Origin: Planctomycetota bacterium
GTDB taxonomy: Bacteria; Planctomycetota; Phycisphaerae; Phycisphaerales; Phycisphaeraceae
Length of the DNA: 51,197 bases
Reading direction: 5' to 3'
NCBI GenBank assembly: GCA_024276075.1
Contig: JAJRXX010000008.1
Span: forward strand, 1-51,197
This document shows positions 1 to 51,148 of the stretch, one piece after another (within the stretch, counting starts at the first letter, position 1; every line of letters begins with the position of its first letter). The position numbers were made by a program, and so were the translations under genes. The notes beneath the pieces were generated by a model. That model was not told the DNA's origin. It was given only the letters and a program-made list of their open reading frames with translations, and did not search any database.

Positions 1-1220
<1,220 letters not shown>

Positions 1221-1593
1221 GGTTTATTGTTGCTGTGGCTGCCCGACGAATCGAGTAAACACAATTGCTTCAATAAGAACGAAAGTTGACCCAGCAACCC
1301 CGATCCCGAAAGATCAGGGCCGGTCTACTCAACTTTATTTTATAAAGATTGAGTTTAACTCACCGATATATTTACCGGTGAGGTTCGCTGTGTACCCTCA
1401 ACCGGATAAATCCGGCTATCACAAGGACACACAGCTAAAGGAAAATGAGGATTGAATGTTCCGCGACGGATGCGTTGTGATAACAACACCCGGCGTGGAC
1501 ACATCCTCGCGGCGTTTCCAACTGTTCACTTGTCAAAGATCGGCGTAGCCTCACATAAAGTGCTGCTATGCGTGGGCTATGCCCAGACCCATC

Positions 1594-1823: not shown

Positions 1824-1928
1824 TAGAGCAACTTGCGTAATTATTCTCCATCTCCCCAAGAAGAAGGCAGGTCAATGACCTGCCCTACTCCAGAACTGAC
1901 ATGGCGATTATTTATGCAAGGTGCTCTA
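1824..1928 (+). mobile_element. 105-bp MITE-like element, copy 1
   Basis: Non-coding element with imperfect terminal inverted repeats: left TAGAGCAACTTGCGTAATTA, right (reverse complement) TAGAGCACCTTGCATAAATA. A central palindrome GGCAGGTCA/TGACCTGCC lies at 1866-1884. By direct comparison it is identical over all 105 bases to copies at 34778-34882 (same orientation) and 51044-51148 (inverted). The outermost TA at each end is probably the target duplication. There is no room for a transposase, so mobilisation would be in trans. Confidence 0.85.
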
Positions 1929-9007: not shown

Positions 9008-9130
9008 GTGGGTCAGTTTGAGTATTTTGGCAAGGTTTGTCATTCGAGATGCTCGTACCAGATGCCACGGGTGTGTTCACCCGTGGCTAAGTGGTGTGCC
9101 CACGCATTGCAATGCGTGGGCTTCGGTTGA
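9008..9130. repeat. composite intergenic repeat (I-A-B units)
   Basis: Three units in tandem: unit I starting GTGGGTCAGTTTGAGTATTT (9008), unit A hairpin GCCACGGGTG-tgtt-CACCCGTGGC (9064-9087), and unit B hairpin CCCACGCATTGCAATGCGTGGG (9099-9120) followed by CTTCGGTTGA. The same order recurs at 10455-10575, so the block behaves as one composite repeat. Confidence 0.75.
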
Positions 9131-10454: not shown

Positions 10455-10630
10455 GTGGGTCAGTCTGAACATTTTGGCGGGAATTGTCGTTCGAGACACC
10501 GGTGCCGGATGCCACGGGTGTCATCACCCGTGGCTAAGTGGGGCCCACGCATTGCAATGCGTGGGCTTCGGTTGAAGACAGGACCGCTCCCTGACGGTCG
10601 CGGCTCGTGGCGGTGACACTCGGATTGAAA
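10455..10630. repeat. composite intergenic repeat (I-A-B-C units)
   Basis: Unit I (GTGGGTCAGTCTGAACATTT), unit A hairpin GCCACGGGTG-tcat-CACCCGTGGC (10511-10534), unit B hairpin CCCACGCATTGCAATGCGTGGG (10544-10565) with CTTCGGTTGA, then unit C with GACCGCTCCCTGACGGTCGC. Same order as 9008-9130, extended by unit C. Confidence 0.75.
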
Positions 10631-18872: not shown

Positions 18873-20174
18873 GTGAGCGACCCTGCCATATGGATCGCGT
18901 TGATGGCGTGCGTGGTGTCGAGCTACGCGGCTGTGTGCCACACGTCACTCAAGACGTACAGCCGATCTCGGCTAGCTGAAATACTCGAAGACCGAGGCCA
19001 ATCGGCGTGGTTTGAGCCGTTTGTAGGTAATCGGTCCAAGCTATTGTTGATGACCGGTGCTCTGCGCACGGGCCTGAATATGGCCGTGTTGTTGGCGATA
19101 CTGATTTACCTGGAGCGGGCTTACCCGGGGCGGGCGAATGCCCCGATTCGATACGCGGCTGCGTTTGTGGTCGCGGGTACGCTGATCAGTATTTTCGCTG
19201 TGGCGGTGCCTATCAGCGTGGTGCGTTATCACCGTGAACGGATTCTGGCACGGTCGATCCCGGTGCTCAATAGGTGTTTGTCGCTGCTGTGGCCCGTGGC
19301 TGTGTTTTTGCATCTGTTCGACCCACTGGTCCGCAGGCTGCTGGGCCCGTCGAAACAAAACGGTGACAGCGATCTGAGCGATGAGATCCTTTCGGTGGTG
19401 GAGGAGCACGACGACCGCGGCGAGGTAGATGAAGGCCAAAAGGAAATGCTCGAAGCGATCGTCGAGTTTCCCAGCACCACGGCTGGCCAAATCATGACGC
19501 CTCGCACCGACGTGCAGGGCATCGAGATACACGCGACGCTCGACCAGGTCCGCCAATCGGTACAGCAGTTTGGGCATAGCCGAATACCTGTTTATGACGA
19601 TAACCTCGACCACCTCGTGGGGGTTTTGTACGCCAAGGACCTGATCCGCTTTATCGGGAACGACCATCCGTTTGAGTTGCGGAAGGTATTGCGTGAGGCG
19701 TTTATGGTGCCCGAGAGCAAGTCGCTGCGTGAGCTATTGGCGGAACTCAAAACACGAAAGGTGCACATCGCTATCGTGCTCGACGAGTACGGCGGCACGG
19801 CTGGGCTGGTGACGATCGAGGACATCATCGAAGAGATCGTGGGCGAAATCCATGACGAATACGAGCGTGCTGAGCCCGAGCCGATGATCCATCGCATCAG
19901 TGACACGGTCGTGGAAGCCGACGCTCGCGTGTACATCGACGACCTCAACGATGAGTTGGACCTGGACCTGTCCGAGAGCAGTGATTACGACACGCTCGGT
20001 GGGTATGTATTTTCAAGCCTGGGCCACATCCCCGACGTGGGCGAGAGCTTTGACGCTGACGGTGTTCGGTTTACGGTCACGGCTGCGGAACGGACCAAGG
20101 TCGGCCGCGTGCGTCTGGACCTGCTCGAACAATCGGCTCAGACTGTTGACCACGATGCTGTCCCGCCGATCTAG
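18873..20174 (+). CDS. CorC/HlyC-family CBS-domain membrane protein
   Basis: 433 residues; GTG start 3 nt after the ybeY stop, so the two genes are co-transcribed. The pairing of ybeY with a CorC-type gene is widespread. N-terminal DUF21/CNNM-like membrane part with about three or four hydrophobic segments (IWIALMACVVSSYAAV; MAVLLAILIYL; AAFVVAGTLISIFAVAV; LLWPVAVFLHLF). Two CBS domains follow: IMTPRTDVQGIEIHA...HSRIPVYDDNLDHLVGVLYAKDL and IAIVLDEYGGTAGLVTIEDIIEEIVGEI. The C-terminal CorC_HlyC domain (YIDDLNDELDLDL...TLGGYVFSSLGHIPDVGE) is complete. Family members are implicated in Mg2+/Co2+ homeostasis; the haemolysin name is historical. Confidence 0.88.
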   Translation: MSDPAIWIALMACVVSSYAAVCHTSLKTYSRSRLAEILEDRGQSAWFEPFVGNRSKLLLMTGALRTGLNMAVLLAILIYLERAYPGRANAPIRYAAAFVVAGTLISIFAVAVPISVVRYHRERILARSIPVLNRCLSLLWPVAVFLHLFDPLVRRLLGPSKQNGDSDLSDEILSVVEEHDDRGEVDEGQKEMLEAIVEFPSTTAGQIMTPRTDVQGIEIHATLDQVRQSVQQFGHSRIPVYDDNLDHLVGVLYAKDLIRFIGNDHPFELRKVLREAFMVPESKSLRELLAELKTRKVHIAIVLDEYGGTAGLVTIEDIIEEIVGEIHDEYERAEPEPMIHRISDTVVEADARVYIDDLNDELDLDLSESSDYDTLGGYVFSSLGHIPDVGESFDADGVRFTVTAAERTKVGRVRLDLLEQSAQTVDHDAVPPI

Positions 20175-20305
20175 AAGCTATTTCAAAACACCTCTCCCCT
20201 TGAGGGGAGAGGTTGGGTGAGAGGTGAAAGCCCCGTAAATCATGGACACACGACCCTCCCCCTACCCCCTCCCTGACAGGGAGGGGAGCTATGAAACCGG
20301 TTCTA
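20175..20305. repeat. 130-bp repeat with two G/C hairpins (family H2)
   Basis: CCTCTCCCCTTGAGGGGAGAGG hairpin (20191-20212), a spacer with GAAAGCCCCGTAAATCATGG, then CCTCCCTGACAGGGAGG (20269-20285) and GAAACCGGTTCTA. A close second copy lies at 40057-40183; the end of a third, inverted, is at 51149-51197. It starts directly at the stop codon of the CBS gene. Confidence 0.75.
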
Positions 20306-25343: not shown

Positions 25344-25367
25344 GCCACGGGTGTGTTCACCCGTGGT
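25344..25367. repeat. CCACGGGTG palindrome (family A)
   Basis: GCCACGGGTG-tgtt-CACCCGTGGT followed by TAAATGG. Nearly the same as 9064-9087. Its right flank TAAATGG matches the flank found on the far side of MITE copy 2 and so shows the empty site. Confidence 0.65.
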
Positions 25368-26488: not shown

Positions 26489-26566
26489 TACCAATCACAA
26501 AAAGTCATGGCCTACACAATGGGTGTTGTGACTCACTGGGAAACAACCAGAAAGCCAGGATAGGGC

Positions 26567-26632
26567 GTTTTTATATTTGGTTGCAACCCTGCATCAAGAG
26601 ACCGCTTCCTAACGGTCGCGGCTCGCCGTGGG
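26567..26632. repeat. extended unit C repeat
   Basis: Starts GGCGTTTTTATATTTGGTTG, runs through AAGAGACCGCTTCCTAACGG and ends GTCGCGGCTCG. The same extended form is found at 33443-33504, with only a few differences. Confidence 0.65.
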
Positions 26633-26766
26633 AATCTGTTACGATCAAAAATGAAAATGCTCTAGGTCAAAAGTTTTTGCGATCTGTATGAGAAAGCAGG
26701 CATCGCACACAGCAGCCTCCGCCGTGCTGTGTGGCACCCCTTTTGTTGCCGACCTAAGACAAATCC

Positions 26767-30151: not shown

Positions 30152-30210
30152 GTAGAAGACCGCTCCCTGACGGTCGCGGCTCGTCACGGTAACACTTTGG
30201 TTTAAAACTA
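30152..30210. repeat. unit C repeat
   Basis: GAAGACCGCTCCCTGACGGTCGCGG followed by CTCGTCACGGTAACACTTTGG, given in two parts. Close to 10573-10628 and 33477-33530. Confidence 0.6.
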
Positions 30211-34753: not shown

Positions 34754-34777
34754 GCCACGGGTGTAATCACCCGTGGC
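34754..34777. repeat. CCACGGGTG palindrome (family A) abutting MITE copy 2
   Basis: GCCACGGGTG-taat-CACCCGTGGC. In other copies the next bases are TAAGTGG or TAAATGG. Here TA is followed by the 105-bp element, and after it comes TAAATGG, so the element sits in the TA of the repeat flank. Confidence 0.75.
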
Positions 34778-34882
34778 TAGAGCAACTTGCGTAATTATTC
34801 TCCATCTCCCCAAGAAGAAGGCAGGTCAATGACCTGCCCTACTCCAGAACTGACATGGCGATTATTTATGCAAGGTGCTCTA
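34778..34882 (+). mobile_element. 105-bp MITE-like element, copy 2
   Basis: Identical base for base to 1824-1928. Lies at the right flank of a family A repeat; comparison with the uninterrupted family A copy at 25344 gives the empty site and shows duplication of a TA dinucleotide. Confidence 0.88.
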
Positions 34883-34908
34883 AATGGGTGGTTGGGCCAT
34901 CCGTGACT

Positions 34909-51043: not shown

Positions 51044-51148
51044 TAGAGCACCTTGCATAAATAATCGCCATGTCAGTTCTGGAGTAGGGCAGGTCATTGA
51101 CCTGCCTTCTTCTTGGGGAGATGGAGAATAATTACGCAAGTTGCTCTA
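51044..51148 (-). mobile_element. 105-bp MITE-like element, copy 3
   Basis: Reverse complement identical to copies 1 and 2. Its right end abuts an inverted H2 repeat: the tail GAAACCGGTTCTA of H2 (see 20293-20305) provides the TA at which the element sits. Confidence 0.88.

Follow-up and report, generated by a model that had tools for sequence, protein, structure and literature searches.

How did a 101-bp MITE come to lie inside an older repeat of a planctomycete genome, which target did it use, and what kind of transposase could have moved it? The locus that raises this question is in a window of 51,197 nucleotides (the whole stretch of DNA that we analysed), which is contig 64 of a 2.88-Mb assembly of 77 contigs that is 95.8% complete. 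The MITE occurs in this window as copies 1 to 3, and copy 2 is the one that splits the older repeat (Table 1). Copy 2 has terminal inverted repeats, GAGCAACTTGCGTAATTATTC / GAGCACCTTGCATAAATAATC, and a central palindrome, GGCAGGTCAATGACCTGCC. When folded as RNA together with its flanking TAs, it forms one long hairpin of -42.5 kcal/mol (z -6.9), and Rfam gives no match over the MITE at gathering thresholds. At 101 bp there is no room for a transposase gene and the ends are inverted, which makes the MITE a short, gene-less element with terminal inverted repeats. We refer to the 101-bp MITE plus its two TAs as the 105-bp family. The window also holds a partial 16S rRNA gene (positions 1-1221, minus strand; Rfam RF00177), which is cut by the contig end.

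Table 1. MITE copies in the window, the target duplications of copy 2, and the older repeats concerned.
Feature	Position	Strand	Remark
MITE copy 1	1826-1926	+	TA at 1824-1825 and 1927-1928
H2 repeat, complete 134-bp TA-bounded element	20172-20305	-	ends TAGAACCGGTTTCA / TAGAAGCTATTTCA; the kind that copy 3 adjoins
Older TA-bounded element	26561-26664	+	ends TAGGGCGTTTTTATATTTGG / TAGAGCATTTTCATTTTTG; contains D1/D7 repeat
Interrupted Family A repeat, left part	34754-34777	+	GCCACGGGTGTAATCACCCGTGGC hairpin
Left TA, target duplication of copy 2	34778-34779	.	64/64 flanked copies likewise
MITE copy 2 (101 bp)	34780-34880	+	one of 43 identical copies
Right TA, target duplication of copy 2	34881-34882	.	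64/64 flanked copies likewise
Interrupted Family A repeat, right part	34883-34887	+	AATGG
MITE copy 3	51046-51146	-	TA at 51044-51045 and 51147-51148; adjoins terminal TA of H2 repeat

The first part of the answer comes from the interrupted repeat itself. The window reads CCCGTGGCTA at 34770-34779, followed directly by MITE copy 2 and then by TAAATGG from 34881, the Family A repeat being split between CCGTGGCTA and TAAATGG. According to the original prediction, Family A copies elsewhere run uninterrupted through this point, and removing the MITE with one TA restores the repeat. Both statements stand. The copies at 9081 and 10528 (CCGTGGCTAAGTGG) and the one at 25361 (CCGTGGTTAAATGG) are uninterrupted, and the joined site, CCGTGGCTAAATGG, agrees with the 15 matches that read through among the 17 found in 451 kb of the genome (the window together with twenty other 20-kb stretches). 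These 15 carry G(C/T)TAAR at the site, and the remaining two are the copy split by MITE copy 2 and one without the TA. A second MITE copy, at C27:57030, has entered a different Family A repeat at this same TA.

The same picture holds across the genome. Either end pattern has 70 matches at up to three mismatches, and 66 complete 101-bp copies could be extracted from these loci. As many as 43 of the 66 are identical, which argues for a recent spread. Once the two copies lacking one flank at contig ends were left out, TA was found on both sides of all 64 others, and target duplications of at least three bases in none of them. The predicted duplication of TA therefore survives its most direct challenge, flanks without it having been sought and being absent among the 64 copies of the 105-bp family. 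The insertion site is YTAR for 53 of the 64; in a 400-kb control, 18.9% of TAs have this context. A pyrimidine precedes the TA in 58 copies and a purine follows it in 59, and GTA is found on the left side of none of the 64. By itself, the 14-base Family A tag does not reach significance within the window (at up to three mismatches, 7 matches with 4.7 expected), so that significance comes from genome-wide counts, namely the 64/64 TA-flanked copies and, for the 20-base end pattern at up to three mismatches, 376 genome matches versus 17 for a reversed control.

The 105-bp family is not alone. A second family of ~126 bp has similar ends and is common in the genome. Differences of the 105-bp copies from their consensus cluster at left-end positions 9 and 14 (T9G in 6 copies, A14C in 7), and both changes give the base of the 126-bp-family ends, which may reflect either subfamilies or exchange between families. 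Two 105-bp-family copies, L007 (C49:40120) and L077 (C18:10180), have nearly the same flanks and differ in the elements themselves; either a duplicated segment or two insertions at one site would account for this. A looser end search yielded 98 paired elements of all kinds, of which 86 are flanked by TA at both ends and 12 lack it at one end or both; the non-TA pairings that we viewed look like decayed or chance pairings. Within the same family and order, 12 of 61 genomes, our own included, contain the end pattern at no more than one mismatch, and one (G012) has six exact-pattern copies of the 105-bp family. We also considered whether the two sizes (~105 and 126-128 bp) reflect helical-turn spacing. 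Among 63 distinct elements, which fall into 7 groups by single linkage and were collected with one exact end pattern only, no periodicity of 10.5 bp was seen (Rayleigh p ~0.21), and we dropped the idea, although more lineages could change this result.

Where do the copies land? We compared 58 105-bp copies having ~500 bp per side with YTAR sites, using a crude ORF caller (ORFs of at least 100 aa). No fewer than 46 of the 58 insertions lie outside called ORFs, compared with 778 of 2,694 YTAR sites, which points to strong selection or bias against genes. Leaving out the 12 insertions within called ORFs, a repeat is present within the 60-bp flanks of 37 of the 46 non-coding insertions versus 112 of 491 intergenic YTAR sites, and it spans the site in 14 of 46 versus 35 of 491; self-matches were excluded in unlike ways, for insertions by identical stretches of at least 40 and for controls by same place. 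An earlier version with all element kinds, with self-matches treated in these same two ways, gave 55 of 78 insertions near repeats versus the same 112 of 491 controls. The original claim that repeats are favoured landing sites is thus upheld as a statistical statement, with the reservation that intergenic calls were crude and that selection may explain part of the excess.

Whether the excess reflects targeting or survival can be read either way. Selection alone, with genes intolerant of insertion, repeats marking dispensable DNA and no targeting at all, has in our judgement about an even chance of being the whole explanation. It is favoured by the deficit of insertions in genes, which is also seen under a stricter ORF rule (applied to insertions and not to controls), which places 78 of 86 insertions outside when all element kinds are counted. 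Moreover, hidden functional DNA in the controls could produce part of the excess, since the ORF caller is crude. Against selection alone, the excess of nearby repeats holds among intergenic YTAR sites in all three gap-length classes: 3/5 insertions versus 14/90 controls in gaps shorter than 150 bp, 17/19 versus 45/138 in gaps of 150-300 bp, and 17/22 versus 53/263 in gaps longer than 300 bp. The excess of spanning repeats is weak in the shortest class (1/5 versus 1/90, p = 0.10).

Some of the repeats hit are themselves elements of this kind. By automatic scoring, two copies lie inside another TAGAGCA-like element and six at its edge TA. Among the latter is copy 3 of the window, for which contact with the tail of an H2 repeat had been correctly predicted; the point of contact is H2's own terminal TA. 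By eye, copies at L003, L039, L097 and C39 are also nested, and a further MITE copy splits the gene of an IS630 transposase (C74, 1597-1699; L144). Both the H2 repeat and the element at 26561-26664 have inverted ends and are bounded by TAs, which identifies the older repeats as being in part mobile elements. Since several are TA-bounded, the older repeats very probably represent, in part, earlier waves of the same process. A rather doubtful extension, which we entertain only tentatively, is that IS630-type mini-elements form a stratigraphy, each new wave preferring to land in older waves or exactly at their terminal TA. If so, old mini-elements would be safe landing pads by real target preference, beyond selection alone. 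As a separate observation, the window has several occurrences of the motif CCGCTCCCTnACGGTCGCGGCTCG (2014-2054, 10578-10618, 30154-30194 and others), and similar motifs are found in other genera inside TA-ended elements with different ends (L151, L165, L171).

As for the enzyme, the likely mobiliser of the MITE, judged from sequence, belongs to the IS630 (Tc1/mariner) family. This type had been proposed at the outset, and it is now backed by an IS630 element with matching ends in the same genome and by relatives, both in their ends and in the YTAR sites where they lie. The element, on contig C45, matches PF13358 (DDE_3) with 130 bits and HTH_Tnp_IS630 with 34 bits. Its start, TAGAGCAGATTGCGTGAATAATTG, agrees with the looser end pattern TAGAGCANNTKGCRTNA at each of the 14 positions that the pattern specifies. 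It is decayed, a stop codon cutting orfA, and its right end has diverged (12/14 positions, without the TA). Past the ends, no sequence common to it and the MITE was found by eye. The C45 element is the sole close transposase relative found in the genome (1 match, E ≤ 1e-10), and no intact IS630 source with ends TAGAGCAACTTGCGT... was found in the 77-contig, 95.8% complete assembly; because the only close relative found is decayed, the enzyme behind the burst is not seen.

Relatives carry the same kind of ends. With the search for ends limited to seven preset TAGAGC-like hexamers, 65 of 110 IS630 loci gave TAGAGC-type end pairs, ~1.0-1.1 kb apart, versus 1 in 100 stretches taken from this genome as controls, the 110 loci being not independent because of repeated IS copies and loci fetched twice. 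Of these 65 paired loci, 63 are TA-bounded, with YTAR at 60 of the 63; the other 45 loci gave no pair, and some of them are cut by contig ends. By eye, some Phycisphaerae IS630 elements have a TTGCGT/TGGCGT end part in common (L222, TAGAGCAACTTGCGC; L219, TAGAGCCACTGGCGT). TAGAGC ends without the TTGCGT part are found in IS630 elements of G031, also from Phycisphaerae, and the listed proteobacterial IS630 ends, by eye, mostly do without the TTGCGT/TGGCGT part. The ends of the MITE are thus of IS630 type, being matched by the C45 element and by some Phycisphaerae relatives. In the 61-genome comparison, which counts our own genome, a transposase relative is held by 7 of the 12 genomes with the end pattern and not seen in 5, versus 9 of the 49 others holding one (Fisher p = 0.009, uncorrected for kinship).

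Several candidates for the source were examined and rejected. A 1317-bp element on C39 (L091:2097-3411), taken for an autonomous parent, is really a MITE copy with an IS3-type insertion; the latter lies inside the central palindrome of the MITE with a 4-bp CAAT repeat, and the MITE copy is itself nested in a 126-bp-family member. IS630 fragments on C74, C76, C68 and at C6:16976 have no MITE-like ends, nor does the IS5 gene C6:5, although a missing end is possible among these IS630/IS5 fragments because several are truncated. On C6, an IS630 remnant is flanked by a 135-bp inverted repeat (L146:1125-1259, 1719-1853) that is 96% complementary, and by eye it adjoins an apparent tRNA gene 3' end.

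Some IS5-family (IS427/IS1031-like) transposases also target TA or YTAR. That such an enzyme moved the MITE appears to us highly improbable. One IS5-type (DDE_Tnp_1) gene does lie at the contig start on C6; however, the side of it that is present in the contig has no end match closer than 4 mismatches (the other side is off the contig), and it is IS630 elements that carry the end sequence.

The empty sites also bear on the duplication itself. Among the 98 elements with 60-bp flanks, to which the search was confined, 20 have an uninterrupted homologue across the junction within the sequence covered. Six of these match element ends rather than an empty repeat. The remaining 14, sorted by eye and with gap status judged on the best match per element, comprise 12 that are gapless at the junction, with the length expected for one TA, and 2 with a one-base gap; some homologues are substituted at the TA itself (e.g., CCAA or TTTA). 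That the terminal TAs are instead part of the MITE, which would have spread by recombination between repeats without any duplication, is barely credible: TA is self-complementary, so a lone copy cannot tell a duplicated from an owned TA, and the common flanks at C49:40120 and C18:10180 could be a segmental duplication, but at empty sites there is just a single TA, from which the repeat runs on unbroken in either direction, and the listed flanks are otherwise largely unrelated to each other.

Together, these findings make it very probable that the MITE is a non-autonomous IS630 (Tc1/mariner superfamily) mini-transposon. We propose that a DDE transposase of the IS630 clade whose ends start with TA-GAGC would recognise the ~21-bp terminal repeats of the MITE, excise it and insert it at a YTAR site whose TA is cut with a stagger, after which repair would duplicate the target TA. 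Both the cut-and-paste chemistry and the assignment to a transposase of that clade, rather than to another TA-using one, are what we infer from the ends and sites described above. Insertions accumulate in non-coding DNA, above all in or near older repeats.

Among the matches listed from a limited full-text literature, as titles and abstract starts, there was no publication on this MITE, which adds a new, if ordinary, member to a known class of elements. It offers a clean bacterial case from a little-studied phylum, in which target, context, empty sites, nesting and likely mobiliser can all be read from the sequence. Because it is nearly uniform, the 105-bp family would serve well as a natural archive of very recent transposition, and it could be used to ask whether mini-transposons favour older repeats.

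IS630 is said, going by the title of a 1991 paper of Tenzen and Ohtsubo, to prefer CTAG, which is one form of the YTAR used by the MITE. For ISY100, of the Tc1/mariner family, the accessible part of the report describes TA chemistry in vitro (PMC2170065). As far as these sources go, TA duplication is common to IS630/ISY100 and the MITE, the former being complete insertion sequences whereas the MITE is 101 bp without a gene. The Correia/NEMIS elements of Neisseria, as described in the accessible part of another report, are ~107 and 155 bp long, have TA at both ends and a stable stem-loop, and have had filled and empty sites compared (PMC2229807); as described there, they resemble the MITE in size, end TAs and stem-loop. 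The closest known system is RUP of pneumococcus, a 107-bp element that, according to the same part of that report, is present in 108 copies, targets TA, resembles an IS630 element in its ends, has IS630-Spn1 as proposed mobiliser and often sits inside other mobile elements (PMC2229807). The host phylum differs, and the partner of RUP is IS630-Spn1 whereas the partner IS630 of the MITE is seen only as a decayed copy. So far as RUP is described there, the two are nevertheless alike in plan, size, TA target, IS630-like ends and insertion in mobile elements, the likeness being one of plan, size and target.
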